Shown: piece by piece, positions 5,757 through 41,194 of the stretch | How the letters are laid out: every line of letters starts with the position of its first letter | Numbering within the stretch: the first letter of the stretch is position 1 | Assembly (NCBI GenBank): GCA_028753945.1 | Contig: JAPNXP010000015.1 | Span: forward strand, 2,170,001 to 2,234,000 | Direction of reading: 5' to 3' | Length of the DNA: 64,000 bases | Source: Hexactinellida sp. DTS-2022 | Lineage: Eukaryota > Porifera > Hexactinellida | Program-made: the position numbers and the translations under genes | Notes under the pieces: model-generated | What the model saw: the letters and a program-made list of their open reading frames with translations, nothing else | What the model was told of the DNA's origin: nothing | Databases searched by the model: none

Positions 5757-6617
5757 TTTCAATCAATTTTGATTGTATTAGCCAATTACTTTTGGGGGCC
5801 TCCTCCTTTTCCCCACACAGCCGCCCTATCCTCTCCATTCAAACCGCATATCTATATCCATTCAATCGGCCGCAATTTTTAAGTTAATTAGCCTTCGTTC
5901 GTATGTGTTGTAACGACATAACAGAATGAGCATCGCATTGATGCGCCCTGATAATGCGGTTCCCAGTGTACAAAAAAAACTCTCAAAGGAAAATAGGTTA
6001 AGTTACAGTAAATTACTCAAACTTGAAATGAAACATTATTACAGTGAACTCCAAGTCGGCTCTAAATCGGCTTATCACAAAGTTCAATGGTCCGGACATC
6101 TTATATTTGACTATACTATAGTCAAATAAATTGATATATGTAATCTCTTTATAACGAAGATATTTCTTACCCCATAAATTTCTGAGTAATTAATTTTAAT
6201 CAGCTTATAACAAATTTGGTGTATACAAATATGAAATCGATGTCCGCAATTCGTTATAACGGGAGTTCACTGTACTTAATAATATACGACGTAACAACGT
6301 TACATCGTGTATGGTGGACTTACTAAATAGAAACTAATTAATTACTTAGTATAAAGTATATTAGTAGATAATTAAAAATGTTAACTCACTTGATTCCACA
6401 GATAATTTACCTACATACTAGTCGTCAGTCTTTTGCATCGTAGATCGTAGATAACAGCTCGTCTTTCGCCACTGGGGATATGCCGTTGCAGGTCACGTTT
6501 CCATATTCTGGGCTCACCATGATTGGGATTGCGTTGCCTGAATAACCTCGAGCAGAGGTCCCCACAAAGTTCGATGTACCTTGCCTTTGAGCGCTTTCGA
6601 TAGAGTGTTGTGAGCTG
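5757..6617. other. AT-rich spacer, no supported gene
   Basis: The foldback array stops abruptly at about 5756 and gives way to unrelated sequence leading to the 3' end of the integrase/OTU gene. It contains a mariner-like MITE at 6042-6272. A minus-strand open frame at 6425-6655 begins just after a possible acceptor (atttcag) and could be an alternative last exon of the OTU gene. I see no domain in it and do not call it. Confidence 0.5.
6042..6272. mobile_element. Mariner/pogo-like MITE
   Basis: The termini are CAGTGAACTCC and GGAGTTCACTG, a perfect 11-bp inverted repeat, with TA on both sides. There is no coding capacity. The TIR matches elements at 46990-47109 and 58839-59011. Confidence 0.7.
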
Positions 6618-8516: not shown

Positions 8517-11076
8517 GATTACAGGTCAAAACGGCTACAAACCAAAACGGCTACAACCAAAACGGCTACAAACCAAAACGGCTACAACCAAAACGGCTAC
8601 AAAACCAAATATTGCCAATCGTTATAAAGAAAGTGTTGGTCGTTCGTTTGGGAAAAGTGATTTAGCAATTAGGAATTATGCAGATATATGTTGGATTATT
8701 TAATAAATAAGTAAAGGACAATGATAAATAATTAGTAAACTACAGCTAACAAAATAAAGAGATGTTTTATTTAGACGTACTAAATTTGCGGTCCATTTAG
8801 CCTGGAGCAAGCCCGCAACATATGGTTCACTGAAATTGTGCCATCAATATATTGTTCCCATAGTGCAAAAATTGCAGTCTGAATTTTCCTATAAGTTATT
8901 CTTTGATATCGTATTGTTCTGTGATACTAAATGTAATTGAAGTGAAACTAATTTAGCTTCTTGATGTAACAGTTTGATGAGTAGATACAGTTGAACTTGT
9001 CCTCGTCGTGCCCTAGTGTTGATTCTCATATGCCAACCTTCTACGTCGTTATTTGTACGGACGGATTGGTTAAAAACAGACCAGTCTCTTGGCTGCCATT
9101 GTCCAGTGATCCACGTATTCCCTATGTAAGTTGTCAATTCCTCTTCAACACTATTGCTAGATACTTCTTGGATTTTTCTGAATGCCGTTTCTATGTGTTC
9201 AGCTGGCAAAAAAGGTAGAGCCATTAACTTTCTACAAAAGTCATGCGTTGAACTATTGTTGATATACTGTTGCTGTAATCCCAAAAGTTGAATTTTCCTC
9301 CAGACTGCCTGGGTCCAATGAAATGAGCATCCTTTAAGGATTACATTTGGGTAAACCTTTGCAATGGCTTTCCATAAACCCGATTCAAAGTCAACTATTG
9401 CACGTCTGACAGCTGGCACTGCGGGAAGGGCTTTTAATACCTCAATTAGTACTCGTCTGTAGTCCCTTTTACGTTTCCCTGACATTAGAACAAATGTTAA
9501 TGGTAATTGCTTTACAGTGCTTTCAGATTTCACGAATGCGTGAATTGAAAATAATTGGACAAACGGCTCTTTAACGATTTTGAAGGTTCCATCTAAATAC
9601 CATGTTTTTGCTCGGCATAAAATGTTTAGCATTTGGTCAGTGGCAAATACTAGATGTCGTCGTCCATCAACTTTGATGTCTGCACGCAAAAAGTTATCAG
9701 GTGTATAGGCCATATCTAATTCAAAGTCCAAATCAGTGGGATCTTGTGGTCGAAGATTTTCTCTAGCGCGGTTAGCAGCTCGTGCCAGATTGGTGATGCT
9801 GGGAAGGCCTGGATTTATATTCTCTATGCGAGATATCATAGCATTTTCAACTATCTCAGCTGCAGGTACAAATATTTCACTTTTGGCTCTCTTTAAGATA
9901 TGAACCTTTAGTTCTGGCTTAAAATTTACTTCAGGATTTGCTGAATGATTGTGACCGTTGACACCACGAGTAAACATATTGCCGCGCTGAGTAACCGTTG
10001 CTAAACATGTCACAGACGTATTTCGTACGCTACAACGCCAGTAAGTAGCAATATTTCTTTTAAGTCTTATGATGTAAGAATACCCAACATTTTCTATTAG
10101 CATATCTTTACCCTTCTGTGATGAATTAGAAACAATTCGAAATCTAGGGTAGTTATTTGTTATGGTGGCTCCAGTGTCAAGAATAGATCCATCGAGTGAT
10201 GATTCTTGTAGATCTTCTGGAATTAGGAAAGTTGGAATGTTATTTGTATTTTCTGTTGGTATATTGGTAGTGTTACTTTCTTCTATATCATTGTAAGCAA
10301 TATTAGTGAATGAAGGTAGAGGAGAATGCGTAATACTTTGGTTTGTATCTCCGACATAAAAGCTATCTTCATCTACTGTTGCATTATTATTTTGACTAGA
10401 AAGAGTTGATTGTCGCGTGCTTTCGTGAAGTGGTAGTTGTTCAGAGTGCAAAGCAAAGTTCAAACAAGTTGCGCACTCCCACTGTATTTCCTCTTCTCCC
10501 CTTACCACTTTCCGATAAATTTCACGCGTGATACCAGTATTACATATGCGATGCTGCCAAAATGAACAATTTTCGCACTGAATTGCTTCCTGCCTGGGTC
10601 TCACAGTTTGACCACATGCCAAACTGGGATCAACTACACCTACATATGACATATTATCTGACATAAGAATTTAAATGATGAATAATTTGTTAGAATTTAA
10701 ATGATGAATAATTTGTTATGAATAATGAATAATTTGTTAGAATTGAATATTTATAGGATAGTTGTCAAATTTTAGAAAACCTATAGATTCAAGCCATCAA
10801 TTGATAAATTGACACCTCTTGTTTTGCTAAATCACTTTATTCAAACGAAAGACGACACTTTCTTAAGTGTTAATTAATAACGGTATTTTCTTCAATTAAT
10901 TTCAAAGCGCAATTCATTTAAAAAAATCGACAATATTTGGTTTTCTAGCCGTTTCAGTTTGTAGCCGTTTTGGTTTGTAGCCGTTTTGGTTTGTAGCCGT
11001 TTTGGTTTGTAGCCGTTTTGGTTGTAGCCGTTTTGGTTGTAGCCGTTTTGGTTTGTAGCCGTTTTGACCTGCGCCC
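8517..11076 (-). mobile_element. FLYWCH-type MULE transposon, complete
   Basis: The element is bounded by an 8-bp duplication GCTGATTG at 8509-8516 and 11077-11084. Removing the element plus one copy restores the reading frame of the integrase exon, which supports these borders. Both ends share CAGGTCAAAACGGCTACA a few bases inside, followed by tandem copies of a 14-16-bp unit (AAAACGGCTACAAACC and shorter) at 8524-8602 and about 10960-11064 in inverted orientation. Further in, looser inverted similarity continues (for example CCAAATATTG and AAAGTGATTTAGCAA). It encodes the transposase at 8889-10664. Confidence 0.88.
8889..10664 (-). CDS. MULE transposase with PHD-like and FLYWCH zinc fingers
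   Basis: Single-exon 591-residue protein starting at an ATG. Residues ~15-65 hold a PHD-like cysteine/histidine cluster (CENCSFWQH ... CATC). Residues ~170-245 match a FLYWCH finger (aromatic residues, WRC, then GHNHS). Residues ~325-560 are a MULE-type DDE domain: D in WYLDGTFKI, D in IVDFESGLW, the CSFHWTQAVWRKI helix typical of the family, and a candidate E in NDVEGWHMRIN. It is expected to bind and cut the subterminal repeats of its own element. The frame is free of stops and the key acidic residues are present, so it may be active. It lies on the same strand as the host gene it interrupts. Confidence 0.9.
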   Translation of the reverse strand: MSDNMSYVGVVDPSLACGQTVRPRQEAIQCENCSFWQHRICNTGITREIYRKVVRGEEEIQWECATCLNFALHSEQLPLHESTRQSTLSSQNNNATVDEDSFYVGDTNQSITHSPLPSFTNIAYNDIEESNTTNIPTENTNNIPTFLIPEDLQESSLDGSILDTGATITNNYPRFRIVSNSSQKGKDMLIENVGYSYIIRLKRNIATYWRCSVRNTSVTCLATVTQRGNMFTRGVNGHNHSANPEVNFKPELKVHILKRAKSEIFVPAAEIVENAMISRIENINPGLPSITNLARAANRARENLRPQDPTDLDFELDMAYTPDNFLRADIKVDGRRHLVFATDQMLNILCRAKTWYLDGTFKIVKEPFVQLFSIHAFVKSESTVKQLPLTFVLMSGKRKRDYRRVLIEVLKALPAVPAVRRAIVDFESGLWKAIAKVYPNVILKGCSFHWTQAVWRKIQLLGLQQQYINNSSTHDFCRKLMALPFLPAEHIETAFRKIQEVSSNSVEEELTTYIGNTWITGQWQPRDWSVFNQSVRTNNDVEGWHMRINTRARRGQVQLYLLIKLLHQEAKLVSLQLHLVSQNNTISKNNL

Positions 11077-13488: not shown

Positions 13489-14503
13489 AGACCAATTGAT
13501 AAATTGAAAGTTTGTTTCTATCTGCTATAATTTCTGAGATTAATGAAATTTAGATAATTAGTATAAATATTTAATTAATCTATTAATAATTTAACACCAA
13601 TATTATGTACATAAAAATAAATTAAGTTCAATTATTTGCAATAATTATTAATCTAAATTGAATTTCATTATATTATTTAAATTCAGCGCACTCGATAACC
13701 CCAATAATCTAATTGGAATTTGGAACCGTCTCTATAAGTTAAACACAGAGCGAATTAATAAGAATTAAATATGTCATGTATTCATTGTGCAAAAATATTC
13801 TTGCAGAAGGAAATATAATCACATAAACTGTCGTTGTTATGAAATATATAATCTTAGTTTTCAATTGGAAAATAGAAGCCTACTCGATCTCACAAGTTGA
13901 ATCAATATAATAATCACAAGTTGAAACAATAGAATTAGATATAACACTTTCAATTGAACTGAAGTGTTAGTAAACAAAGGAAATTTGCAACTCTATTGTG
14001 GCACTAATGAAACCCAATTTAGAAATTCGTGCACTGTGAAAAGGTGTAGAATTTAATTCTCTATCGAATGCATATAAATTTAATTTTCGGGTACTATTTA
14101 TTGTTCCTGTTTCAATATTAAACAGGTGCAAAAATGTGTCCAAATAAATGTAATAAAATATCGTGACCCCAGGTGCACATCTGTAACCCATGAGACACAT
14201 ATCCTGAAATTTTGGGTTCTTAGTTAACTTTACTCTGTTCAGTGGATGAGCTACGGAAGAATAATAATAATAATAATAAATTGCAGCCTGTGCCGACGCA
14301 TGTTCCTTTAGTGGCACTATATTTTGTTGGTTGTTTATTGATAGTGCCTCCAAAGGAACATGCTGTCGGCGCAGGCTGCAATTTTGGATTTCTTTCGCCA
14401 AGTCATCAACGCCCAAGGTGTGAAGAAGCATTTGTTATTTGGTCCGAGTCACAAGGAACGGTAGATATATTTGAAGTTTGTTTCTATCATAAACCATCTA
14501 GAG
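13489..14503. repeat. Foldback repeat family, inverted relative to the first array
   Basis: A B-type arm (accaattgataaattgaaagtttg, from 13489) leads to a foldback core at 14279-14388, then to an A-type arm (aagtcatcaacgcccaaggtgtgaag). The copy is split at 14503 by a hAT element. Confidence 0.8.
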
Positions 14504-14665
14504 CAGTGGTTCTTAACCTTTTCTCTGCCATTTCCCACTTTGGAGTACCTAGTTACTCTATTCCCCACCTAAATATGAACTTAATTTAAGAAGTAAATGG
14601 TGCTCATATACTTTATGGGTACACTTAATAATATCCCTTTTAATATTATTGTTATTAGTCCAGTG

Positions 14666-14802
14666 TAATGGCGGCGCCAGCCAACCGCCACTGTCGGGGC
14701 ACAATTGCGTCACAGGTGGGGCAAAGGCTGTTAAACTGGGGCACACTCACATCAATGATGTGGGGCACAGGCCCCACCTGGCCCCACCTCGCGCCGCCTC
14801 TG
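14666..14802. mobile_element. hAT MITE nested in the 1.2-kb hAT
   Basis: GTCCAGTG occurs directly on both sides (14658-14665 and 14803-14810). The ends TAATGGCGGCGC and GCGCCGCCTCTG are inverted over about nine bases. The interior is rich in GGGGCAC and GGCCCCACC motifs. Confidence 0.75.
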
Positions 14803-14836
14803 GTCCAGTGACACTTATAAATACATAACTATATAT

Positions 14837-14955
14837 CAGGGTTGTAAATCAAGCCAAATATTTCAAATATTTGATTTAATTTGAATTGATTCACGCGAAT
14901 ATTGAGTGGTAAAACATTTGATATAAGAAAAGATAAATTTTTATTTACAGCCCTG
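14837..14955. mobile_element. Probable hAT MITE nested in the 1.2-kb hAT
   Basis: The ends are CAGGGTTGTAAA and TTTACAGCCCTG, nearly perfect inverted repeats. Flanks ctatatat and ctttatgt differ at two of eight positions, as expected for an aged duplication. Confidence 0.6.
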
Positions 14956-15184
14956 CTTTATGTTCATTTAGTTTTTTTTTTCCCACAAGGGAAACTAAGG
15001 CTTTGGAAATTCTCCTGCCAAAGATTTCTGTAGTCCTGCCAAACTAGACCATATTATAATATATAACATAGTTACAGCAAATGAAACTAGTCCGACCATA
15101 GCCGGACCAGCAGAACAGAGTGTTATGCCTATGCCAAGGATATTTCTTGAAAAGGGCAATATAAATTTTCAAAGCAAATCAAGG

Positions 15185-15292
15185 CGATATTTGAATTTGA
15201 TTCTATATGGATTTGAGCATCCCAGGTAACTCCGTTCGCACGGAGTTCCCAGAGGTGCTCAAATCCGTATAGAATCATATTAATTCGTGATT
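15185..15292. repeat. Long foldback hairpin inside the hAT element
   Basis: Outer arms gattctatatggatttgagc and gctcaaatccgtatagaatc face each other around an inner hairpin AACTCCGT-TCGC-ACGGAGTT. A separate short hairpin GTCCAGA-ttttg-TCTGGAC lies at about 15442-15460. Confidence 0.75.
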
Positions 15293-18200
15293 TCCACACT
15301 AAATTTTGATTGAGCATTTTGTTTTTTAATATTTGATAAGTCAAGGGAATCTCAAACTAATTCCCGTGTCAATGTTTATAATGAACAACGGCCGAGCGTA
15401 GCGAGCGTGCGATTTTTTTTGGGCGCTCGAACCCTCTAGAAGTCCAGATTTTGTCTGGACAACACTGCAGGTATGGTCTGGAAGCAGTGAATATCTGTTT
15501 AATATACGTACGAGTTCAACACAGAAATCTGAAAATAAGTACAAGTATAATTTAATACAATAAATTGAACAGGTTGAATTCCAAGAAAATATTCCAAACT
15601 ACTGTTAATGATTTGTAAACTTTTAGCCTGAAGCTCCATTCCCCACCTGAGGATCCTCAATTCCCCACTAGTGGGTAATTCCCCACCGGTTAAGTACCAC
15701 TGATCTAGAGTTTAATGCCATTCATTCATTATGTATTGATAATACATTATATTATTAGTTAGTTATTTTAGCAATGTTATCCACGGTGAGTGAGTTAAGT
15801 CAACAAATTCCTTATATTATATTATTTTATTTAATCCATTGTATAGTAAATTAAATAGAAGCCAGCTGGAATTTATAATTGAAATCAATATAATTATTGA
15901 AGTTGAATCAATAGAGTAGGATTTAACAAGTTAAATCAATATAATTATTACAAGTTGAAACAATGGAATTAAATTTCACAGTTTTAATGAAACAGAAGTG
16001 TGAGTAAACAAAGAAATTTCAACCCCCATTTATGGCAGAAATTAAACCCTTTTTTGAAGATTTTCTTCTCCCATCAGACGCAGAATTTTAAGAAGAATCT
16101 AAATATGAAATAAAATTTTGGGATTTAGTAAAACATATTTTGAGTTATAGACCAGACAAATCTTGAAAGGTGTTAAAGATGTGTCCAAAATATGTTAATA
16201 CAAAATCGTAACCCCAGGTGCAAATTATACGTCGACTCCGAACCTACATGCCAAGTGTCAGCCATCTATGTATACAGGTGTGGCCAGGGCACCTGCTACG
16301 GAGGAAAGAAATCCAAAATTGCAGCCTGTGCCGACGCATATTCCTTTTGATGGCACTATATTTTGATTGTGGTTTATTGAAAGTGCCTCCAAAGGAACAT
16401 GCTGTCGGCACAGGCTGCAATTTTGGATTTTTTTCGCCAAGTCACCAACGCCTCGGGGTATCAAGAACCATTTGTTAATTGGTCCGAGTCACAAGGAAAT
16501 GTAGATAAATTTGAAGTTTGTTTCTATCATAAACCATCTAGAGTTTAATGCCATTCATTCATTATGTATTGATAATAAATTATATTATTAGTCATTTATT
16601 TTAGCAATGTTATCCACGGAGGGTGAGTTAAGTCAACAAATTCCTTATATTATATTATTATATTTAATCCATTGTATAGTAATACTATAATTAAATAGAA
16701 GCCAGCTGGAATTTATAAGTTAAATCAATATAATTATCGCGAGTTGAATCAATAGAGTAAGATTTAACAAGTTAAATCAATAAAATTATTACAAGTTGAA
16801 ACAATAGAATTAGATTTAACAGTTTACTGAATCTGAAGTGTGAGGAAACACAGGAGATTGGCACCCCAATTATGGCACAAACCTAGGCTAAGTTGAACAT
16901 TTGCGAATTGCCAAAAGGTGTAGAATTTAATTCTCTATCCGTATATGTAAAATTTATCAAGCTAACTATTAATTATTTAATGCTATAGCCATAATTAGTT
17001 TAAATAGGTGTTAAAATTATTTGATCAAAAATCGTAACCCCAGGTGCAAATTAGACGGTCACTCCGCAACTACATGCCAAATTTCAGCCCTTAATGTATA
17101 CAAGTGTGGCCAGGGCACCTGCTACGGAGAAATAATAATAAAAAATCCAAAATTGCAGCCTGTGCCGACGCATGTTCCTTTGGTGGCACTATATTTTGAT
17201 GGTAGTTTATTGATAGTGCCTCGAAAGGAACATGCTGTCGGCACAAGCTGCAATTTTGGATATTTTTTTTCTCCAAGTCATCATCACTATAAAGGTGTTA
17301 AATTCTTTCAGAAAGGTGTTTCAGAATGCTACTACCCTTAGAGTGGTGGAAGTTTCCATTTAGTTCACTTCATTTAGAGATATTCAAGTTTGAGTAGAAT
17401 ATAATAGCTAATGACTCAGCATATTTTATGTGAGTGTTGGGTCATCACCCAACATCAACTAACCTATTTTAAATATCAAATTAGCAAAATTGTAAAAACA
17501 CATTTTTTTAACGATGTCATCATCACCTCAAGGTGTCAAGACCCACTTGTATAGGTGGCACGTGCCATAAGGACCAATTGATAAATTGAAAGTTTGTTTC
17601 TATCTTCTATGATCTCTGAGATTTATGATATTTAATTAATTAGTATAAATAATTATTAATAATATTTATAATTTAACACCAATTTCAATGTCAACTTATA
17701 TTTATAAAGTTTGATTATTTTGTCATAAATAATAAATTAATTTATTGGCTATCAAATTTCAATTCCGCACACTCGATAACGCCTAATAAACAAATTGGGA
17801 GCATCTATATAAGTCATATACTGACTTAATTAATTATAATTAATTACGTCAGTATATTTACAGTGCAAGAGTATTCTTGCAGAAGTAAATATAATCACAT
17901 AATCTGTCGTTGTTATTGAAATCTATAATCTTAGTTTTCAATTGGAAAATAGAAGCCTACTCGATCTCACAAGTTGAATCAATATAATAATCACAAGTTG
18001 AAACAATAGAATTAGATTTAACACTTTGAACTGAACTGAAGTGTTAGTAAACAAAGGAAATTTCCAACTCAATTGTGGAACAAACGAAGCCCAATTTAAA
18101 AATTCGTGCACTGTGAAAAGGTGTAGAATTTAATTCTCTATCGAATGCATATAAATTAAATATTCGCGGATATTTATTGTTCTTTTCTAATATTAAACAG

Positions 18201-18360
18201 GTGCAAAAATGTGGCCAAATAAATGTGATAAAAAAACGTGACCCCAGGAGCACATCTGTAACCCATGAGACACATATCCTGAAAATTTGGGCTCTTAGTT
18301 AATAAAACTCTGTTCTGTGGAGAGGATAGGATACGGAAGGAAAATAATAATAACCAAGGC

Positions 18361-18515
18361 ACTAAGTCGGCACAGTAATAATTACCAACAAAAGCACTAA
18401 GACCAATACTGGGACACTATACTATAGTATAGTCGGCACAGTAATAATAATAATAATAAAGGCAGTGATTCCAATACTGGGCCACTATACTATAGTATAG
18501 TCGGCACAGTAATAA
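18361..18515. repeat. Palindrome-containing ~60-bp tandem units
   Basis: Partial and full copies of a unit with the perfect 18-bp palindrome ACTATACTATAGTATAGT followed by CGGCACAGTAATAAT. The array ends directly against the foldback core at 18524. Confidence 0.8.
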
Positions 18516-21348
18516 TAAAAAATCCAAAATTGCAGCTGTGCCGACGCATGTTCCTTTGGTGGCACTATATTTTGGTGGTGGTTTATTGATAGTGCCTCCA
18601 ATGGAACATGCTGTCGGCACAGGCTGCAATTTTGGATTTTTTTTCGCCATGTCATCATCACTATGAAGGTGTTAAACTATTTCAGAAAAGTGATTCAAAA
18701 GGCAACGACCCTTAGTGAGTTGGAAGTTTCGTTTTAGCTCACTTCATTTGAGAGATATTCAAGTTTCAGTAGAATATAATATGTGCTGAGTCAGCATTTT
18801 TAGGTGCCGTTTGGGTATTCACCCAACTCCTACCAACCCATGCGAATTATTTAATTCGCAAAATTGTAAAAATACATTTTTTTGACGATGTCATAATCAC
18901 CTCAAGGTGTCAAGACCCACTTGTATAGGTGGTACCTGGCATAAGGACCAATTGATAAATTGAAAGTTTGTTTCTATCTTGTATCATCTCTGAGATTAAT
19001 GAAATTTAGCTAATTAGTATAAATATTTAATTAATTTATTAATTATTTAACACCATTATTATATACAGCAAAATAAATTAAGTTCAATTATTTGCAATTA
19101 TTATTAATTTAAATTGAATTTCACTATAATATTTGAATTCCACGCACTCGATAACCCCAATAATCTATTTGGAACCATCTCTATACGGTAAACACAGAGC
19201 GAATTAATTAGAATTAAATATGTCAGTACATTAATTGTGCAAGAATAGTCTCGCCGAAATAAATATAATCACTTAATCTGTCGTTGTTGTGGTATGTAAA
19301 ATCTTAACGGTTCTATCATAAACCATCTTTAGTTTAATGCCATTCATTCATTACTTATTGATAATGAATTAAATTATTAGTTATTTATTTTAGCAATGTT
19401 ATCCACGGTGATTTGAGTTTAGTCAACAAATTCCTTATATCATTATATTTTATTTAATCCATTGTATAGTAATATTACAATTAAATAGAAGCCAGCTGGA
19501 ATTTATAAGTTGAATCAATATATTTATCTCAAGTTGAAACAATAGAGTAAGATTTAACAAGTTAAATCAATATAATTATTACAAGTTGAAACAATAGAAT
19601 TAGATTTAACACTTTTACTGAAATTGAAGTGTGAGTAAACAAAGAAATTTCAAACCCCATTTATGGCAGAAATTAAACATATTTTTGAAAATATTCCTCT
19701 CCCATCAGACGCAGAATTTTATGGTGAATCCAAATGTGAAATAAAATTTGGGGGTTTAGTAAAACATATTTTGAGTTATGGACCAGACAAATTTTGAAAG
19801 GTGTTAAAGATGTGTCAAAATTTTGTTAACGAAAAATCGTAACCCCAGGTGCAAATTAGACGGTCCCATCGCACCTACATGCCAAGTTTCAGCCCATCAA
19901 CTATAAAGCTCAGGCCAGGGCACCGTCTACGGATAAAAAGAAAAATCCAAAATTGCAGCCTGTGCCGACGCATGTTCCTTTGGTGGTGGTTTATTGATAG
20001 TGCCTCCATAGGAACATGCTGTCGGCGCAGGCTGCAATTTTGGATTTTTTTTCCGCCATGTCATCATCACTATGAAGGTGTTAAATTATTTCAGTAAGGT
20101 GTTTCAGAAGGCAACGACCCTTAGAGTCGTGGAAGTTTCCATTTTGCTCACTTCGTTTCAAAGATATTCAAGTTTCAGTAGAATATAATAAGTGATGAGT
20201 CTGCATTTTTTATGTGAGTGTTGGGTCATCACCCAACACCAACTAACCCATTTTAAATGTCGAATTAAAAAAATTGTAAAAATACATTTTTTTAACGATG
20301 TCATCATCACCTCAAGGTGTCAAGACCCACTTGTATAGGTGGTACCTGGCATAAGGACCAATTGATAAATTGAAAGTTTGTTTCTATCTTGTATCATCTC
20401 TGAGATTAATGAAATTTGCTAATTAGCATAAAAATTTAATTAATGTATTAATTATTTAACACCATTATTATATACAGCAAAATAAATTAAGTTCAATTAT
20501 TTGCAATTATTCTGAATTTAAATTGAATTTCACTATAATGTTTGAATTCCACGCACTCGATAACCCCAATAATCCAATTGGAACCGTCTATAAGTTAAAT
20601 ACAAAAGGAATTAATTATAATTAATTACGTCAGTACATTAATTGTGCAAGAATATTCTCGCCGAAATAAATCTAATCACTTAATCTGTCGTTGTTGTGGA
20701 ATGTAAAATCTTAACGGTTCTATCATAAACCATCTTGAGTTTAAAGCCATTCATTCATTATGTATTGATAATAAATTATATTATTAGTTATAAATTTTAG
20801 CAATGTTATCCACGGTTAAGTTGAATAAAGTCTACAAATTCCTTATATTATAATATTTTATTTAATCCATTGTATAGTAATACTACAATAAATAGAAGCC
20901 AGCTGGAATTTATAAGTTAAATCAATATAATTATCGAAAGTTGAATCACTAGAGTAGGATTTAGCAAGTTTAATCAATATAATTATTACAAGTTGAAACA
21001 ATGGATTTAGATTTCACAGTTTTACTGAAATTGAAGTGTGAGTAAACAAAGAAATTTCAACCCCCATTTATGGCAGAAATTGACCACTTTATTGAAAAAT
21101 TTCTTCTCCCATCAGACGCAGAATTTTATGGCGAATCCAAATGTGAAATAAAATTGGGGGTTTAGTAAACAATTTATGAGTTATGGACCAGACAAAATTT
21201 GTAAGGTGTTAAAGATGTGTCAAAAATTTGTTAATAAAAAACTTAACCCCAGGTGCAAATTAGACGGTCCCATCGCACCTACATGCCAAGTTTCAGCTCT
21301 CTATGTATGCAGGTGTGGCCAGGGCACCTGCTACGGAGAAATAAAAAC

Positions 21349-21609
21349 CAGTGTAGTAGCACTGCTGATGAGGTCTAATCATATACTGACCGAAACCACG
21401 CCCGTATAACATTATGTAAAAAGCTAGTGTTCTCTATAGGGTGGTTTCGGATTAGATGCCATTTAGGTCTTGGAGGAGGCACCGTCATTGCGCTGGTTTA
21501 CGTCGGGTATGTTTACTCTGCCCCTGGTCCCGTGGTCCAGTGTAGTAGCACTGCTGATGAGGTCTAATCATATACTGACCGAAACCACGCCCGTATAACA
21601 TTATGTAAA
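21349..21609 (+). mobile_element. Retrozyme-like insert: 1.4 copies of a 189-bp ribozyme unit
   Basis: About 72 bp at 21349-21420 (cagtgtagtagcactgctga to attatgtaaa) recurs at 21538-21609, giving a 189-bp period. The insert sits within the A/T run just before a foldback core: uninterrupted copies read gagaaataataataaaaaatccaaaattg (for example 17128-17156). The interior is GC-richer than its surroundings. The first copy starts exactly at the predicted self-cleavage position of the hammerhead, and only the second copy has the complete ribozyme. That is the layout expected from reverse transcription of a self-cleaved or circular RNA. No protein frame is present. Confidence 0.75.
21531..21589 (+). 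ncRNA. Type III hammerhead self-cleaving ribozyme
   Basis: All parts of the motif are present. Stem III is CGTGG at 21531-21535 with CCACG at 21585-21589. The cleavage triplet is GTC, ending at 21537. Stem I is CAGTG/CACTG with a 6-nt loop (21538-21553). The core CTGATGA is at 21554-21560, stem II is GGTC/GACC (21561-21580), and GAAA is at 21581-21584. Stems I and II are closed by loops and stem III is open, hence type III. Cleavage is predicted between 21537 and 21538. The copy at 21349 lacks the 5' strand of stem III. Confidence 0.88.
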
Positions 21610-23493
21610 ATCCAAAATTGCAGCCTGTGCCGACGCAAGTTCCTTTGGTGGCACTATATTTTGGTGGTGGTTTATTGATAGTGCCTCCATAGGAACATGC
21701 TGTCGGCGCAGGATGCAATTTTGGATTTTTTTTCCGCCATGTCATCATCACTATGAAGGTGTTAAATTATTTCAGAAAGGTGTTTCAGAAGGCAACGACC
21801 CTTAGAGTCGTGGAAGTTTCCATTTTGCTTACTTCGTTTCAAAGATATTCAAGTTTCAGTAGAATATTATAAGTGATGAGTCAGCATTTTTTATGTGAGT
21901 GTTGGGTCATCACCCAACACCAACTAACCCATTTTATATGTCGAATTAAAAAAATTGTAAAAATACATTTTTTTAACGATGTCATCATCACCTCAAGGTG
22001 TCAAGACCCACTTGTATAGGTGGTACCTGGCATAAGGACCAATTGATAAATTGAAAGTTTGTTTATATCTTGTATCATCTCTGAGATTAATGAAATTAGC
22101 TAATTAACATAAAAATTAATTAATGCATTAATTATTTAACACCATTATTATATACAGCAAAATAAATTAAGTTCAATTATTTGCAATTATTATTATTTTA
22201 AATTGAATTTCACTATAATGTTTGAATTCCACGCACTCGATAACCCCAATAATCCAATTGGAACCGTCTATAAGTTAAATACAAAAGGAATTAATTAGAA
22301 TAAATTACGTCAGTACATTAATTGTGCAAAAAGAATATTCTCGCCGAAATAAATATAATCACTTAATCTGTCGTTGTTGTGGAATGTAAAATCTTAACGG
22401 TTCTATAATAAACCATCTTTAGTTTAAAGCCATTCATTCATTACTTATTGATAATAAATTAAATTATTAGTTATTTATTTTAGCAATGTTATCCACGGTG
22501 AGTTGAGTAAAGTCAACAAATTCCTTATATAAATTAATTTAATTTAATCCATTGTATAGTAATGCTACAATTAAATAGAAGCCAGCTGGAATATATAAGT
22601 TGAATCAATATAATTATCGCAAGTTGATTCACTAGAGTAGGATTTAACAAGTTAAATCAATATAATTATTACAAGTTGAAACAATGGAATTAGATTTAAC
22701 ACTTTTACTGAAATTGAAGTGTGAGTAAACAAAGAAATTTCAACCCCCATTTATGGCAGAAATTAAACCATTTATTGAAAGTTTTCTTCACCCATCAGAC
22801 GCAGGATTTTATGGTGAATCCAAATATGAAATAAAATTTGGGGGTTTAGTAAAACAATTTTTGAGTTATGGACCAGACAAAATTTGAAAGGTGTTAAAGA
22901 TGTGTCAAAAATTTCTTAATCAAAAATCGTTACCCCAGGTGCAAATTATACGGTCCCTCCGCAACTACATGCCAAGTTTCAGCCCATCAACTATAAAGCT
23001 CTGGCCAGGGCACCGTCTACGGAGAAAAAATAAAAAAATCCAAAATTGCAGCCTGTGCCGACGCATGTTCCTTTGGTGGCACTATATTTTGTTGGTGGTT
23101 TATTGATAGTGCCTCCAAAGGAACATGCTGTCGGCGCAGGCTGCAATTTTGGATTTTTTTTCGCCAAGTCATCAACGCCCAAGGTGTGAAGAACCATTTG
23201 TTAAGTGGTCGGAGTCACAAGGAACGATTGTTGAATTTGAAGTTTGTTTCTATCATAAACCATCTAGAGTTTAATGGCATTCATTCATTTTGTATTGATA
23301 ATAAAATATATTAGTAGTTATTTATTTTAGCAATGTTATCCACGGTGATTTGAGTTTAGTCAACAAATTCCTTATATTATTATATTTTATTTAATCCATT
23401 GTATAGTAATACTAGAATATATAAGTTAAATCAATATATTTATCGAAAGTTGAAACAATAGAGTAAGATTAACAAGTTAAATCAATATAATTA

Positions 23494-23686
23494 CAGTCAG
23501 GTCTGCTTATTATGAACAAGATTTCGACTGCTTAATATGAAATTTTTTTATTATGAACAAACCCTACGGTCCCAATTTAAAATTTACATAGGGTTTGTAT
23601 TAAGTTGAGTTCGCTTATTATGAAGTCACTCTATTATGAACACAATTTTTGGACCCTTGAATGTTCATAATAAAAGAACCTGACTG
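23494..23686. mobile_element. Pogo/mariner-like MITE in a foldback copy
   Basis: CAGTCAGGT...ACCTGACTG-type ends are flanked by TA. The interior repeats the motif tattatgaac in both orientations. The host repeat is otherwise continuous across the site. A diverged relative lies at about 60041-60207. Confidence 0.75.
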
Positions 23687-25810: not shown

Positions 25811-28800
25811 TTAAATCATGTAGATTGCATCATAGTGGTTCGCACCACTTCCACAATGATTAATGGAATGAAATAGAACTATTAATGACTTTCCTTGATA
25901 GATAGGATCATTGGGTATACCTATCATATTTTCAGTATACACATCAGTTATAACCCATTTAGACGGGTCTGTATCAGGAGCATTAATATAACTTACATTA
26001 ATGCGGGCTAAAATGCCTAACATAATAAGTTCATTCAAACTTCCCCAAGAGTAATTACGCCGCATATTACTCCAGTGTTGCTGAATAGTAACTGCATTAT
26101 AGCCTTGGATGCCACATAAAGCAGCAACATAAGGACTTTGTTCAAATGTGTCTATTAGAGAACCACGGATATTATGATGCTCACTTTCATCACCGAAAAT
26201 AATGTGAGACAATGTTCTAAAGAAACAATTCCCATCACTTATTACAGGAACTATCCTGAAATTAAACCGATCTCTTATATTTGTACGCATAAAATCGTAA
26301 TAACTAGTAGCAGAGACTCTAGACCCAGTATAGTTAGTCGGTCTTAAAGGTATTCTCTGTAGATTAATGCATGCTGCTAATGACTGTCTCATCGCAAATG
26401 TGAATGAATTTGCATTGTCATATGTATTTACGGGAGGCAGCACAGGAGTAGGGATGTGTACATGACTAACAATTACATCCTGAATATCCTTGGTTGTATT
26501 ATCATTTGATATTTGATCAATATCAATAATATCATGTTGACTAGTAGCATGTGATATAATTGGTTGATTATCCACATTACTACAGTCACTAACACCAGTT
26601 CCAAGAGAAATCAACATTGGCTTATGATCACTAAAGTATGATTCATAAAAACCAGATGAACAGGTCAAGTTTTTAGTGAATACACAATCCAGCTGAGATC
26701 CATAGTTAGTGGATACTCCAGACAAAGATTGCATTATACCTTTATTTGCAAAATACTTTATCAAGGTATCTCTCTCAAGAGATCGGGCAAATAAATCTAT
26801 ATTGAAGTCCCCAGTAACAATCAAGGAATCAGAGTTATCAATTTTACATAGAACCTGATCAAGTTCCGAGTAAAATTCCTTCATTGGGGATTGTGGTGAT
26901 CGGTATATAGACATTACCACGATAGGGTTATCGATAATCATGGGATCATAGAACTGGATAATCAATATCTCGATCCTAGCGCCATTATGACAGCCTGAGT
27001 GTGCAACTAAAGACTTACACACCGCTGGATTTCGGGAGTATATGTGTGTACCAGAACCAGGAAGTCTAGCGCTACCATCAATTCTACCAATGAGAGTATG
27101 ACCAGGGAAATTAAAGTTATCAGTGGCTAAAGTCATTGTCTCCTGCAAGATTAACACTTGGGATTGTACTATGAATGGATCTACGGTCAAGTCCTCCCAG
27201 TGTTTGTTCAATGAACGAACATTGTGTACATATATATCTGGGCTAGTTAGTGGAATAGACCAGATAATAGAACAGTGTTCTCTTAACCGCTTAAGTTCTA
27301 AGTGGACAGGATCTTTTTCAGATAACTTATTAGTTAGTTTTAGAATACCAACTACAAACAGACCAGATGCCGATTTAGCCCTACTGAGCGCGGTGTATAA
27401 CGCATTACGTAGCAAACGTACTTCTATATGGACTACAACACAGTCGTAAGTATCGCCTTGACTCTTATGAATTGTAAGAGCTTCGGCTACTATGAAAGGA
27501 AACTGCTTCCTAACTATCTTATAGGAACTCACACTTTTCCCTCTCTGGAAACGTCGTGTTTCCAATCCAATAGGAGTCCAGTTCCTTGGAATTGCATTAT
27601 CTCTAACATAACGATGCTGAGACTTCGCTCGTTTATCCTTTCCAACTGTAGGATCGTCAAACTCGATCCAGAGGATACAGGGAACTCGTTCCAGAGAATC
27701 GCTCTTGGTACCATAAACTATTTTCTTCAAGAGGCCAGTAGCTCCATTAACCAGACCATCTTGTATGTCGTTATTCACCGTCATGAGGTATCTAGCGCCC
27801 AGCTTCAAGAAGAGCTCATAGGGTAGTCCCTGGGTGTCACACACCTTTAGGTGTTTAATAAGGTTACTCAGCTTGTCAGTTATACCTCCAGCAGTGTCTC
27901 CTACTAAAGAATCAATAGCTATAAATCTAAAACCTTCAGTGGTTAATGCATTGAGAACAATCTCGTTATGAGCATTAACACTGGCGTTTGTACTAAACAG
28001 ATGGATAGATTTTATGGGAAGATTCTCATAAGAATCTTTCGCAATAATTCTACTAGTAAATAGAGTTGTGTCATCATCAGTTAAACAACAGTTAGCAAAA
28101 TTGTTCAATGCTAATGCAAACTTCTGATCATCTTTTTGTCTCATTATTTCCGTCAGTTCTATATATGAGAATTTTTCCCAAAGGTACGGACCAACCAGCC
28201 CGTCGTAATTATTGGCACTGGATACTGAAATTTGAAATACATAGCTATCCATAACCGGGCGTAACTGATGGAAATCCCCAACACAGATGATGGAGACACC
28301 ACCAAAGTCCAGTGAATTGTCCATAATGGCTTTCAATCGCTTATTAACCTGAGACATAATTTTACTACCAACCATGGATATTTCATCTATTATGATAACT
28401 TTTAAACAGCTTAGCTTACTTCTTAATGTGTTACAAACATCAGAAGATAAGTTGGGCATTTCGCCGTTAAACTCCGTTACAGGTAAAGCAAATGCAGAAT
28501 GGAGTGTCATACCACGGATATTAAAAGCAGCTTTACCTGTAGGAGCTGTTAGCAGTACCTTAATAGCATCAGGTTTAGTACCAGGTAGTGAATTCATAAA
28601 TCTTACCAAACCTTCGTATAAGACTCGTACGACTGTACTCTTACCAACACCAGCACCTCCTCCTATATAGAGATACATGGGCAGCTGCTTCATAGTCTTA
28701 AAGCAGTGCAGAGTGTGGAGGAATACTGTACGCTGAACCTTGTTCAAGCTGCGACACATCTCAAGAAATACCTCCTCAGTATTCATGTTAGGAATAGTGA

Positions 28801-31800
28801 AGAATCCTCCTACAGATTTAGTTCCGGGGTCACTATTGGGATCTACAGTCCAGGGATTGTCGTTCCCTGGATTGTCTACCTGGAAGTCAGTATCCTCAAT
28901 AACCACTGCACCCTCATTATTCATTATTTCCTCAATGGCAATCCCATCAAAGTTGAGCTCATCAGGGTCCAAGTCCTCGAGGATATTAATAGCCTCGTCA
29001 ATTGAGGATTGGTCTCTACTTTCAAACAATTCCCTATTCTGAGTAATCAGATTAAGATTGTTAGCATACATAGACTTAAAGTCGATATTGTCAGTATCAC
29101 TAGTGTCAGTTCTCCATGGTACAAACAGCATTAACTGTTCTCTATAAAAGTTAACTTCGTCCTGTATAATACTATACCTTCTAAATCGAATAATTTTAGC
29201 TTTACGACGAAGTCTCATAAAACCTGTATCTTTGAGAGGAAATAATCTCGGATTATCGACCAGGGACGCTGCCTCGTCTTCCATATTTTCCTCATCAAAG
29301 TCGGGATTAGTTTTACATATTCGCTTATTAGATTGGAATTCATACCAAGCGGCAAACTCTGCTAGGCATGTTTCCTCTAACTCATCAGGTCGTTGCATGT
29401 AGTGCTCAATTAGACCTGACAGAAGTATATCTACAGAATCCTGTTCCATACCCATTAGAACGGGTTTAGACTTGAGTATCCTAACCCGTTTATTAGCAGG
29501 ATTGGTGTTAATATAGACATTAGCTCTACTGCACTTAGAGAGAGGGAGACTGAGGAGATGGTAAGAAACCTCCTGGGCTGATACCTCGCTACAGCTCTGA
29601 AATTTGTATGCAATTCCCCTCAGTCTCTCTTTGATAGTGGCATTGCCTGCTTTTAGATGCATTAAGGCATCTCTCAATAACTTAGACATCCCACGCTGGG
29701 ACTTTCCGATATACGAAATAACATAAACAGCACAAGCATATGGATCCAATATGTATTGGAGATCCATATTAGCTTTCCAGAGATGCAATATAGTCTTATT
29801 ATGAGCATTGATTCGTATCTCATTCAAATTTCGTTTCAGAAATATAGTAGGTCTATTCACACAAGATCTCAATGCAGTTATGTATTGCTCTTCGGTAACA
29901 TAGAGTTCATTAAAGAAATCCTGTATCGTTATACTACTTAAGTCAGTATCGCTCTTATCATAGGTGTCAATTAGAGCATATATTTTCTTAGCAGTCTCCT
30001 TAAGAGCTGCATTAGCAGCTATCTCCTCCTTGGTAGCCGTACTGGCAGCAAACTCCAATGGCTCTAGAATTTTAGTTGATACCATTGGAGGGTACGGAAT
30101 ACCAAACCTACAGCGGCGAAACGACTTTTTCTTATAACACGTATTTGTGTGCTTATGTCGCTGTAACTTAATATCATCCTTAGTTATTATACTAGTCTCA
30201 TCTGGCAATTTAACTGAGATAGTACGATCAATAAATTCTATTACTTCTGGTAACGAATTGTGGCCATACTTAGGTGCATCTTGTACCCAAAGTAACGAAT
30301 GCACATGTGGTGACCCTCTTTGCTGAAATTCTATTCTCAAATAGTAATCAGTCAATTTACCAAGGGGACTAACCTCTGATCGAAGCACCTTAAATAGCTC
30401 CTTGGAGCGGTGATCAAAGTACCTAGCACAAGTGACAGGATCTCTCCTTATCAGATCTGCTCTCTCGCTCCACTGGAATTCCAGAACCTCTTCAACAGAC
30501 AGCTTAACGTCATCGAGGATCTGTTTCAGTATCCTTAGTAGCTCTAGCCATTTAGTCTCAGCAGCAGACAGAGTTAGAAAGAACGTGGGACATCCCAGCT
30601 GTCTTATCATAGACATCAGTTCTCTCTGTTTCTGCTGCCAGAATGCAGGGGTAGACCGGACTTGCTTCAAGAACTTAAAAGCCTCATCGTCCTCAACCAT
30701 TCTCTCCAGATTATCGTCATTGAGAACATCAGACACAGTTATAGCCTGTCCGTCATTAGACTTTGTTTTTCTCATACAAATACTGATAGCACTGTTAAGA
30801 CTAGCCGTCTCCACCAGTTTGTACTTAAGAAACAGCAGAGGGATGTTAGTGCTACATCTCCTATCATATCTAGGGTATAAATTAAATAGGCTAATTAGCA
30901 GATTTGAAAATTATATTAATTATAACTTAGTTAATTGTAATTTAGATAACAAATATGTTTTTAACCATGGATTTAACATAATAATTTATACTTTAAGAAT
31001 ATCCATGGTTGAATAACAAATTAATTATGTATATAGTAGAGATTGAGATTATAAGTATTATTAGATAGTAACTAACCTCAAGATGTCAGACTTTGATTTC
31101 TTGAGGATCGACAGGTCCTCAGGTAAGTCTCTGCATTGACCAGCAAACACACAAGGGTATGCTAGTTCCTCTATAAACTTATCCGTGGTTAAGTACAGAG
31201 GCTTCCTCCCTTCTCCAGGAGCCAATTTCATTAAGAGGTTCTCATTAGACAGCAGCAGTGTGTCTAGAGAACCAGGGTTAATGGGGAGATCATCCTTGGT
31301 CTCATCCCAATCATCAATCTCCTTCAACAACTCCTCAAGGTTATCGAAGAGCTCCTCGATACCAGGAATAGTTTCAGAATCCTCTTGTTCTTCATCTACA
31401 ACTATATCACAAGGCTCGTCATTCGGGTTAACAATAAAATTAATATTACCAGAACCAGTACGTGTAACAGAGTTAACCCAATTCTCTGACACTACTACCT
31501 TCTCTAGCTTGAAGAGTTCAGTGGTAGAGAGATAGCGAGATGCTTCTAACACTACATTCGGTCTTATCGTTTCGTATAAATAGGGTTTCGCGAACGATAA
31601 CTTACGAAACAACTGTAACTGAATGGTTTGGGACTGTAGGAATGTCCTAGGTAACTGATTAACAGTCTTATCCATGTCAATGGGAACATTAACAACCATG
31701 CCATGCAGTCCGTGCTGTCTCTCCCTGCCCAGAGATCTGATGTTCATGAACTCGTGTCTGGGAGATACCAGTCTCTGTTCAATCACAGTCAGACCAGATA

Positions 31801-33237: not shown

Positions 33238-33626
33238 ATCTAATTAGTAATTTAAAGTATAAAGCGAAATATAAATAGATTTACAGTAAATACAGCAGTG
33301 AAAAAGAAAGTTTAACTATATTATCATATTATTTTGTATTAATTAAAATTAAAATTGATTTAGAAATTCCGGTAGTAATTAATTAAACTTAATACGAATA
33401 AGTTCTGCCAGGAACAGTAAATATTGAGAACGAATTGTGAGAAAGAAAAAGAAAGTGTATTAATAAATAGAATAGGAAAAACATTACCTTCAAAAATAGA
33501 AGTTTACGACAATGATTCAAAAGAATAAAGGTAAAAAAGAATAAGTAAAAAGTCAAATAATGAGAAAGATAGAAATTATTAAATTTATACTTTTTGAAGA
33601 AACCTGTAAGTATATAGATGTTCAAT
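33238..33626. other. AT-rich leader upstream of the Helentron gene
   Basis: No gene is supported. The open frame at 33389-33625 is low-complexity Phe/Leu-rich translation of AT-rich DNA. The foldback family resumes at about 33627 (aataaatataattatcgc), so one border of the Helentron block is near here. Confidence 0.5.
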
Positions 33627-34185
33627 AAATATAATTATCGCAAGTTGAAACAATAGATAAGATTTAACAATTTGAATCAATATAATTATTACAAGTTAAA
33701 ACAATTAAATAGAAGCCAGCTAGAATTCACAAGTTAAATCAATATAATTGTAGCAAGTTGAAACAATAGTGTAAGATTTAACAACTTAAATCAATATAAA
33801 TATTACAAGTTGAAACAATGGAATTAGATTTCACAGTTTTACTGAAATCGAAGTGTGAGTAAACAAAGAAATTTCAACCCCCATTTATGGCAGAAATAAA
33901 ACTCTTTATTAAAAGTTTTCTTCTCCCATCAGACGCAAAATTTTATGGTGAATCCAAATATGAAATAAGATTTGGGGGTTTAGTAAAACAATTTTTGAGT
34001 TATGGACCAGACAAAATTTGAAAGGTGTTAAAGATGTGTCAAAAATTTCTTAATCAAAAATCGTGACCCCAGGTGCAAATTAGACGGTCCCTCCGCAACT
34101 ACATGCCAAGTTTCAGCCCATCAACTATAAAGCTCTGGCCAGGGCACCGTCTACGGAGAAAAAATAATAATAAAAATAAAAATAA

Positions 34186-34240
34186 AGGCAGTGATTCCAA
34201 TACTGGGCCACTATACTATAGTATAGTCGGCACAGTAAAA
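34186..34240. repeat. Single palindrome-containing unit
   Basis: One copy of the ~60-bp unit with ACTATACTATAGTATAGT, adjacent to a foldback core. Confidence 0.8.
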
Positions 34241-37200
34241 ATAATAAAAATAATAAAAAAATCCAAAATTGCAGCTGTGCCGACGCATGTTCCTTTGGTG
34301 GCACTATATTTTGGTGGTGGTTTATTGATAGTGCCTCCAATGGAACATGCTGTCGGCACAGGCTGCAATTTTGGATTTTTTTTCGCCATTTCATCATCAC
34401 TATGAAGGTGTTAAACTATTTCAGAAAAGTGATTCAAAAGGCAACGACCCTTAGTGAGTTGGAAGTTTCGTTTTAGCTCACTTCATTTGAGAGATATTCA
34501 AGTTTCAGTAGAATATAATATGTGCTGAGTCAGCATTTTTTAGGTGCCGTTTGGGTATTCACCCAACTCCTACCAACCCATGCGAATTATTTAATTCACA
34601 AAATTGTAAAAATACATTTTTTTTACGATGTCATAATCACCTCAAGGTGTCAAGACCCACTTGTATAGGTGGTACGTGCCATAAGGACCAATTGATAAAT
34701 TGAAAGTTTGTTTATATCTGATATAATTTCTGAGATTAATGAAATTTAGCTAATTATTATGAATATTTAATTAATTTATTAATAATTTAACACCAATATT
34801 ATGTATATCAAAATAAATTAAGTTCAATTAAATGCAATTATTATTAATTTAAATTGAATTTCACTATAATATTTGAATTCCACGCACTCGATAACCCCAA
34901 TAATCTATTTGGAACCATATCTATACTGTAAACACAGAGCGAATTAATTAGAATTAAATATGTCAGTACATTAATTGTGCAAGAATAGTCTCGCCGAAAT
35001 AAATATAATCACTTAATCTGTCGTTGTTGTGGTATGTAAAATCTTAACGGTTCTATCATAAACCATCTTTAGTTTAATGCCATTCATTCATTACTTATTG
35101 ATAATAAATTAAATTATTAGTAATTTATTTTAGCAATGTTATCCACGGTGATTTGAGTTTAGTCAACAAATTCCTTATATCATTATATTTTATTTAATCC
35201 ATTGTAATAGTAATACTACAATTAAATAGAAGCCAGCTGGAATTTATAAGTTGAATCAATATATTTATCTCAAGTTGAAACAATAGAGTAAGATTTAACA
35301 AGTTAAATCAATATAATTATTACAAGTTGAAACAATAGAATTAGATTTAACACTTTTACTGAAATTGAAGTGTGAGTAAACAAAGAAATTTCAAACCCCA
35401 TTTATGGCAGAAATTAAACATAATTTTGAAAATATTCCTCTCCCATCAGACGCAGAATTTTATGGTGAATCCAAATGTGAAATAAAATTTGGGGATTTAG
35501 TAAAACATATTTTGAGTTATGGACCAGACAAATTTTGAAAGGTGTTAAAGATGTGTCAAAAATTTGTTAATCAAAAATCGTAACCCCAGGTGCAAATTAG
35601 ACGGTCCATACGCACCTACATGCCAAGTTTCAGCCCATCAACTATAAATCTCAGGCCAGGGCACCGTCTACGGAGAAAAAATAAAAAAAATCCAAAATTG
35701 CAGCTGTGCCGACGCATGTTCCTTTCGTGGCACTATATTTTGTTGATGGTTTATTGATAGTGCCTCCAAAGGAACATGCTGTCGGCGCAGGCTGCAATTT
35801 TGTATTTTTTTTCGCCAAGTCATCAACGCCCAAGGTGTGAAGAAGCATTTGTTATTTGGTCCGAGTCACAAGGAACAGTAGATAAATTTGAAGTTTGTTT
35901 CTATCATAAACCATCTAGAGTTTAATGCCATTCATTCATTATGTATTGATAATAAATTATATTATTAGTTAGTTATTTTAGCAATGTTATCCACGGTGAT
36001 TTGAGTTTAGTCAACAAATTCCTTATATTATTATATTTTATTTAATCCATTGTATAGTAATACTAGAATTAAATAGAAGCCAGCTGGAATTTATAAGTTG
36101 AATCAATTTAATTATCGCAAGTTGAAACACTAGTGAAAGCTTTAACAAGTTAAATCAATATAATTATTACAAGTTGAAACAATGGAATTAGATTTCACAG
36201 TTTTATTGAAATAGAAGTATTGAGTAAACAAAGGAATTTCAACCCCCATTTATGGCAGAAATTAAACCAATTTTAACAAATTTTCTTCTCCCATCAGACG
36301 CAGAATTTTATGGTGAATCCAAATGTGAAATAAAATTTGGGGGTTTAGTAAAACATTTTTCTAGCTATGGACCAGACAAATTTTGAAAGGTGTTAAAGAT
36401 GTGTCAAAAATTTGTTAATAAAAAATCGAAACCCCAGGTGCAAATTAGACGGTCCATACGCACCTACATGCCAAGTTTCAGCCCATCAACTATAAAGCTC
36501 AGGCCAGGGCACCGTCTACGGAGAAAAAATAAAAATAATAATAATAAAAAAAAATCCAAAATTGCAGCCTGTGCCGACGCATGTTCCTTTGGTGGCACTA
36601 TATTTTGGTGGTGGTTTATTGATAGTGCCTCCATAGGAACATGCTGTCGGCGCAGGCTGCAATTTTGGATTTTTTTTCCGCCATGTGATCATCACTATGA
36701 AGGTGTTAAATTATTTCAGTAAGGTGTTTCAGAAGGCAACGACCCTTAGAGTCGTGGAAGTTTCCATTTTGCTCACTTCGTTTCAAAGATATTCAAGTTT
36801 CAGTAGAATATAATAAGTGATGAGTCTGCATTTTTTATGTGAGTGTTGGGTCATCACCCAACACCAACTAACCCATTTTATATGTCGAATTAAAAAAATT
36901 GTAAAAATACATTTTTTTAACGATGTCATCATCACCTCAAGGTGTCAAGACCCACTTGTATAGGTGGTACCTGGCATAAGGACCAATTGATAAATTGAAA
37001 GTTTGTTTATATCTTGTATCATCTCTGAGATTAATGAAATTTAGCTAATTAGCATAAAAATTTAATTAATGTATTAATTATTTAACACCAATATTATATA
37101 CAGCAAAATAAATTAAGTTCAATTATTTGCAATTATTATTAATTTAAATTGAATTTCACTATCATGTTTGAATTCCACGCACTCGATAAACCCAATAATC

Positions 37201-40972: not shown

Positions 40973-41194
40973 ATTATGACATCGTCAAAAAAATGTGTTT
41001 CTACAATTTTGTGAATTCTATATTTCGAATGGGTTAGTTGGTGTTGGGTGATCACCCAACACGCACATAAAAAATGCTGACTCAGCACATATTATATTCT
41101 ACTGAAACTTGAATATCTCTCAAATGAAGTGAGCTAAATGGAAACTTCCACCACTCTAAGGGTCGTAGCCTTCTGAAACACCATTCTGAAATAA

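Follow-up and report, generated by a model that had tools for sequence, protein, structure and literature searches.

Retrozymes have been proposed to link retrotransposons with viroid-like RNAs. If an insertion ends at the cut of its own ribozyme, it would be genomic evidence that a self-cleaved RNA can be a template, which is the step assumed by the models of the retrozyme life cycle.

In the sections of the literature drawn on here, LTR retrozymes with type III hammerheads are elements of plants, and the retrozymes of animals are non-LTR elements with type I hammerheads (PMC7229834, PMC7761336, PMC4918200 and the 2024 review PMC11722881), in agreement with what a preliminary description of the present locus had said of the animal ones. 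Penelope-like elements are described with a minimal type I hammerhead in their terminal repeats (PMC7229834, PMC11722881). Type III hammerheads are already known from animals, in delta-like RNAs and insect genomes (PMC7936874), and isolated hammerheads are reported from ferns and algae (Cervera et al. 2016, PMC4918200).

We analysed a stretch of 64,000 nt, hereafter the window, from the sponge Hexactinellida sp. DTS-2022 (contig JAPNXP010000015.1, positions 2,170,001 to 2,234,000), and searched 112 Mb of its genome in 18 contigs. We named family A the hammerhead with a 189-nt unit at 21348-21610 of the window, and family B the LTR-like repeats with a hammerhead. Judged from their sequences, family A would be a rare retrozyme-like family with one telling insertion, and family B is the stronger and more surprising result.

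The window hammerhead and its insertion

The family A insertion of the window (C7:2191348-2191610) is 263 bp long and holds 1.39 units. Its features, in window positions, are as follows.

21338 to 21347, + strand: A-rich target left of the insertion, empty in 9 of 13 other stretches of the host repeat
21349 to 21537, + strand: copy 1, a full 189-nt unit from one cleavage site to the next (repeat comparison)
21349 to 21400, + strand: hammerhead remnant of copy 1, lacking the 5' strand of stem III
21390 to 21403, + strand: 3' part of the hammerhead, CCGAAACCACGCCC, predicted to pair mostly with 21439-21450 (GGGTGGTTTCGG) in the unit RNA
21531 to 21589, + strand: complete type III hammerhead ribozyme, predicted cleavage between 21537 and 21538 (descriptor, fold, reading)
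21538 to 21610, + strand: copy 2, partial, 73 nt, same as copy 1; the final AAAA may be target sequence
21554 to 21560, + strand: catalytic core CTGATGA, with its partner GAA at 21581-21583 (direct reading)
21607 to 21634, + strand: inverted-repeat arm of the host repeat, right of the insertion; the other arm is at 21702-21729

The preliminary description had placed a complete type III hammerhead in the second of two copies 189 bp apart, the first beginning at the cleavage site without the 5' strand of stem III, and both statements hold. Precisely, the direct copies 21348-21421 and 21537-21610 are spaced by 189 bp with 100% identity, 21349-21421 being equal to 21538-21610 in 73 of 73 nt. The hammerhead is composed of stem III (CGTGGT/ACCACG), stem I (CAGTG/CACTG) and stem II (GGTC/GACC, with a 12-nt loop), followed by GAAA, and its predicted cleavage is after C21537. 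Copy 1 begins with 21349, immediately downstream of the equivalent cleavage position; because the preceding base, 21348, is a C and the unit also has a C there, the start may coincide with the cleavage site or precede it by 1 nt.

As a descriptor of the type III form we considered the core together with stems I and II of at least 4 pairs and a stem III of at least 5 pairs. It gave two matches in the window, one on the + strand with cleavage after 21537 and one on the - strand with cleavage between 44224 and 44223. No match came from 300 dinucleotide shuffles, each searched on both strands. The minimum-energy fold of the 67-nt stretch around the window hammerhead is the three-stem form, with an ordinary energy (z -1.24). 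The check by the Rfam hammerhead III model, suggested earlier, did not report 21531-21589, either at the gathering cut-off or at E<=1, a miss that we think is putatively caused by the 12-nt loop II; Rfam does report the second hammerhead at 44178-44231 (- strand), on which the preliminary description was silent. On the minus strand of the 189-nt unit no hammerhead was found by Rfam, by the descriptor or by the family-A model.

The host sequence of the insertion is itself a repeat with many copies in the window, and these provide the empty site: 9 of 13 other stretches go uninterrupted from a GGAGAAA-type, A-rich left side into ATCCAAAATTGCAG, and the remaining 4 differ on the left side or in the continuation, or have other inserts at the junction. 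The 189-bp unit is absent from the rest of the window. Since the other host-repeat copies in the window are without the sequence, a single insertion is the simplest way for the 263 bp to have arrived. AAAA stands on either side of it, inside an A-run, and a 4-bp duplication is possible but indistinguishable from the run itself. The insertion into an A/T run beside a foldback core, as it had been described, is indeed seen, the junction of the repeat being A-rich and adjoining the inverted repeat 21607-21634/21702-21729.

A plain DNA tandem duplication of a fossil hammerhead, in which the start at the cleavage site would be coincidental, has in its favour that tandem arrays are plentiful in the window and that there is a single junction; we consider it very improbable, given that the empty host-repeat copies make one insertion of 263 bp the simplest account and that a start within 1 nt of the cleavage site is expected by chance, by simple arithmetic, in about 3/189 of cases (~1.6%).

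The host repeat has foldback ends and is present in many diverged copies, in both orientations, at 1-5760, 13490-23500 and 33600-41200 of the window. Rfam matches to microRNAs in the window were set aside: all are below the family cut-offs, and those examined lie on foldback repeats, several of them at host-repeat copies. The window also holds, on the - strand, a 1699-aa open frame (25811-30910) with Helitron-like N-terminal, PIF1 helicase and endonuclease/exonuclease domains, and a MULE transposase with a FLYWCH zinc finger (8889-10670). Its genes include a GALNT-type glycosyltransferase with a ricin-type lectin domain, whose best matches reach 87% identity and whose best named relatives are from two sea anemones (43 and 45%), a snail (49%) and Trichoplax (44%), and kinase and BEACH domains.

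Family A in the genome and the origin of the insertion

We searched the genome for family A with the DNA of the window insert, with the DNA of the C11 units and with a half-motif allowing at most 3 mismatches. All searches gave the same four loci, with six motif copies genome-wide, and the reversed control gave none. The wider search for the 189-bp unit that had been suggested at the outset gave a second two-unit locus, within a total of just four loci. This second locus (C11:3212322-3212626) has two units spaced by 182 bp and is 73% identical to the window insert over query positions 1-252; read from the alignment, core bases are missing from one of its hammerheads, and the other carries a mismatch adjoining the core. 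Tandem units of 150-400 bp are therefore present, with spacings of 189 and 182 bp, at 2 of the 4 loci. At C1:15902681 there is a piece of ~60 nt with a changed core base, and its flank is single-copy, so its junction is not resolvable. The fourth locus, C1:4953532, is a filler of ~50 nt, without the 5' strand of stem III, in an internal deletion of a multi-copy transposon, with microhomology at its edge. Among all the copies, a hammerhead that is both complete and intact is seen in the window copy alone.

C1:4953532 was a candidate for a second start at the cleavage site, which we rejected. Of the other copies of its transposon, seven match as far as query position 213 and four take up the match again at 263, and position 213 is inside TGGTAGCA, in stem-loop I of the hammerhead, so that the edge consists of shared letters. 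The C11 two-unit copy starts elsewhere, and no other copy with the same start point, an outcome that the preliminary description had named as counting against it, was found among the three remaining loci (C11, C1:4953532 and C1:15902681). The assembly yielded no close parent of the window copy, the best relative being the 73% one.

We regard it as fairly probable that 21348-21610 is a cDNA-derived insertion of a retrozyme-like self-cleaving RNA, in a genome which also has LTR retrozymes of plant build (family B) in a variant with a foldback hairpin. The type III hammerhead would have cleaved a multimeric or circular RNA with a 189-nt unit at one boundary between units and spared the next; reverse transcription would have begun from a break in the A-rich junction of the host repeat, the T's of the target pairing with the RNA's own A-run, and would have run until the 5' end made by the ribozyme. 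From one junction we infer that the template would have been a ribozyme-cut RNA. For the cDNA of a self-cleaved or circular RNA, as proposed at first, there are the multimer of 1.39 units cut at its own predicted cleavage site and the numerous type III elements of the genome; on the other side there is one junction only. Against it stand also that this is the sole family A insertion starting at the cleavage site, with the chance of about 1.6% given above, and that the assembly holds no close parent.

The capture of a scrap of family-A RNA, cDNA or DNA during the repair of a DNA break, pasted into the A-run by AAAA microhomology with no retrotransposition machinery, is unlikely as the origin of the window copy. 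In its favour, the filler at C1:4953532 looks like such an event, with its ~50 nt in a transposon deletion and shared letters at the edge. The window piece, however, comprises 1.39 units, and its start at the cleavage site would be a rare outcome for a random scrap. An integrated piece of an exogenous viroid-like circular RNA, with no genomic parent, would explain why the two copies are identical to each other and yet the nearest genomic relative found is at 73%; we find it barely credible in view of the older family A copies in the same genome, of the unit without a minus-strand hammerhead by the three methods above, and of the search of the viral contig collection with one family-A pattern, which gave 0 exact matches.

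Returning to the cDNA-derived insertion, we folded the unit RNA. As a circle, the 189-nt unit has -57.4 kcal/mol, compared with -48.7 +/- 4.2 in 200 shuffles (z -2.05); as a line it has z -1.25, and 25 of the 200 shuffles are equally low. Both predicted folds pair the 3' part of the hammerhead with GGGTGGTTTCGG, and by prediction only this pairing would mask the ribozyme in the unit-length RNA, as in the plant retrozyme RNAs that are described with a blocked hammerhead (PMC4918200). The stability of the fold is only mild, circular and linear, and the energy of the hammerhead itself is ordinary, and both count against the explanation that we favour for family A.

LTR-like repeats with a type III hammerhead (family B)

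The - strand hammerhead of the window lies in a repeat with the ends of an LTR.

44102 to 44414, - strand: family B solo LTR-like copy, 313 bp, with TG...CA ends
44178 to 44231, - strand: family B type III hammerhead (RF00008, 61.4 bits; Rfam)
44415 to 44418, - strand: target-site duplication GAAG at the 5' end of the copy
44098 to 44101, - strand: target-site duplication GAAG at the 3' end of the copy

A motif like TAACA or TGACA occurs soon after the hammerhead in both families (21595-21600; 44169-44173 on the - strand), by ancestry or chance.

The genome search with the Rfam type III model, in which 68 of 12319 first-look candidates were scored, reported 68 matches, at least 64 of them over the cut-off. 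Among these, 67 aligned from model position 1 and one from position 5, and 0 of the 68 listed are cut at the cleavage site, which counts against the explanation favoured above, although the search is biased against cut copies. With a 23-base half-motif of family B and at most 2 mismatches we found 336 matches genome-wide (reversed control 0). Exact matches to the family-B pattern were 0 in viral contigs and 0 in bacterial and archaeal genome contigs.

We fetched the loci with the best Rfam scores plus a few others, for a total of 92 motif matches in 78 distinct contexts, some of which are copies of one segment. Single LTRs make up most of what was fetched. End motifs allowed both ends to be placed in 39 of the 78 contexts, and the other 39, without one or both end motifs, were not counted. 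Exact 4-bp target duplications flank 12 of these 39 single LTR copies, the window copy (GAAG) included, against a cross-copy rate of 0.8%; 5-bp duplications flank none of the 39. Measured from the cleavage site in the 12 copies with a duplication, the 5' TG lies 134-208 nt upstream and the 3' end, CTCATAACA or close variants of it, 121-124 nt downstream. The 27 of 39 copies without a duplication include some inside multi-LTR elements and a few with ends from a loose motif.

The order of these ends bears on another explanation of family A, as a mini LTR retrozyme whose unit would consist of a ~151-nt LTR ending in ATAACA and an internal part of ~38 nt, with a GGGTGGT piece before the LTR, the window copy being 5'-truncated. 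The stretch conserved between the window and C11 begins with a piece resembling GGGTGG (it reads AGGTAG and GGATGG in the two C11 units), continues with TTTYGGATT and closes with ATAACA, and the piece that separates one unit from the next varies; a similar order is found in family B, with GGTGAT before the LTR and ATAACA at its end. A 4-bp duplication, however, is not visible at the C11 copy, the window copy extends 6 nt beyond ATAACA before the A-run, and multi-unit loci are just two; we hold this explanation to be improbable, and for the window copy we keep to the insertion derived from the cDNA of a self-cleaving RNA.

We read two elements in full, and both have two direct LTRs around a short non-coding middle. 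The first, on C1 (L083 and L092), is a 684-bp LTR-internal-LTR element with hammerheads 385 nt apart and CTAC on both sides; its longest open frame has 70 aa, and LTR1 is without part of its 3' end. Its empty sites are evident, as the joined flanks with a single CTAC match copies of their host repeat unbroken, with 90-99% identity, in 40 of the 40 places scored (40 of 1479 candidates were scored). The second, in L040, has the order LTR (325)-161 bp-LTR, with hammerheads 486 nt apart, plus further inverted copies; the whole inverted complex (3724-5907 of L040, 2184 bp) is flanked by CTAT repeats. By inspection of these two elements, a purine tract precedes LTR2, AAAGGGAAGGTGAT in L040 and CAAGGGGGGTGAT in L083.

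Hammerhead LTRs in head-to-head inverted order, with a hairpin between them, were observed at L040 3724-5907, L023 and L009. In L045 (3749-4686), a hammerhead of family B type (cleavage near 4434, + strand) is at the end of a reverse-transcriptase gene fragment, and two further hammerheads, on the opposite strand near 4674 and 4088, are about 0.24 and 0.35 kb from the first.

A hairpin at the LTR end with a stem of at least 14 pairs is present in 8 of the 59 family B copies with a placed 3' end; three of the eight are in L040 and two are the halves of L023. When the flanks were shuffled base by base, at least 10 pairs were reached in 0 of 1180 trials and at least 8 pairs in 3. The other 51 copies have no such stem; the majority are single LTRs, in which it would not be expected. 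L023 and L040 each contain a long head-to-head palindrome with the hairpin at its centre. We read the 8 hairpin copies for a tRNA-Met primer site adjoining the LTR. What follows the LTR in them is the hairpin arm, and 0 of 8 begin with TGG. The foldback at the LTR 3' end would prime the synthesis at the place where the tRNA primer site is expected; we infer this from sequence, because a reverse transcriptase extending a folded-back end would produce a head-to-head palindrome. Against the part of our explanation concerning family B stand the 27/39 copies without a duplication, the 39/78 contexts without a placeable pair of ends and the 51/59 copies without the hairpin.

For the conservation of the ribozyme we considered 56 distinct family B hammerheads, leaving out one of 57 that is without stem II. 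The alignment cells pair in 93.4% of cases. Six pairs have changed on both sides, which 13 of 500 shuffles also attain. The covariation score of 0.141 compares with 0.079 +/- 0.007 in the shuffles (0 of 500 as high), and related rows inflate such counts. Stem III is the weakest, with 84.8% of cells paired and the outermost pair broken in 30 of the 56, and these values, with the shuffles that reach the both-side changes, are further points against the explanation. The flanks differ widely between family B subfamilies while the hammerhead is kept, which would fit selection on cleavage.

Comparison with known systems

Family A resembles the metazoan non-LTR retrozymes, as described by Cervera and de la Pena 2020 (PMC7229834), in its unit within 150-400 nt, in its tandem units without an LTR shown and in its insertion into an A-run, which is compatible with target-primed synthesis; it differs from them in the hammerhead, type III instead of type I, and in the only four loci found. 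The type I model (RF00163) reported 14 matches genome-wide, 0 of them over the cut-off; by this search the type I terminal-repeat hammerhead described for Penelope-like elements was not found here. The type III hammerheads described in delta-like RNAs and insects (PMC7936874) have long helices I and II, whereas here the helices are short, and delta-like circular RNAs are described with hammerheads on both strands (PMC7936874), unlike the single strand found here.

The proposal of the preliminary description that a type III unit may represent a separate animal group is borne out much more strongly by family B than by family A, with its four loci, for which it is weaker. In the part of the open-licence listings covered, no paper was found whose title or abstract deals with an animal LTR retrozyme. 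We put at about even the prospect that this genome has an animal LTR-retrozyme system of its own, in which type III RNAs would be copied by the machinery of LTR elements with foldback instead of tRNA priming, giving solo LTRs, full elements and head-to-head complexes, plus a minimal 189-nt relative that would show self-cleaved RNA as the inserted template. If true, such a system would break the rule of type III and LTR for plants, type I and non-LTR for animals, and the LTR/type III form would either have arisen twice, or predate flowering plants by far, or have passed from one kingdom to another.

Family B is like the plant LTR retrozymes, as PMC4918200 presents them, in the type III hammerhead within LTRs of ~300-325 bp, the LTR-internal-LTR order, the absence of a long open frame, the 4-bp target duplications, the purine tract and the many solo LTRs. 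It is unlike them (PMC4918200) in its animal genome, in the foldback hairpin at the LTR end where the plant elements have a tRNA-Met primer site, in the head-to-head inverted complexes and in the spacing of the cleavage sites, 385 and 486 nt in the two elements read compared with about 700 in plants. Bivalve TRIM elements (PMC6934838) share with family B that they are tiny non-coding LTR elements of animals, with inverted repeats in the inner domain and no clear tRNA primer site; that paper makes no mention of a hammerhead, a difference from family B, and names self-priming LTR elements such as Tf1. Of the work seen, PMC6934838 is the nearest precedent for the family B foldback.
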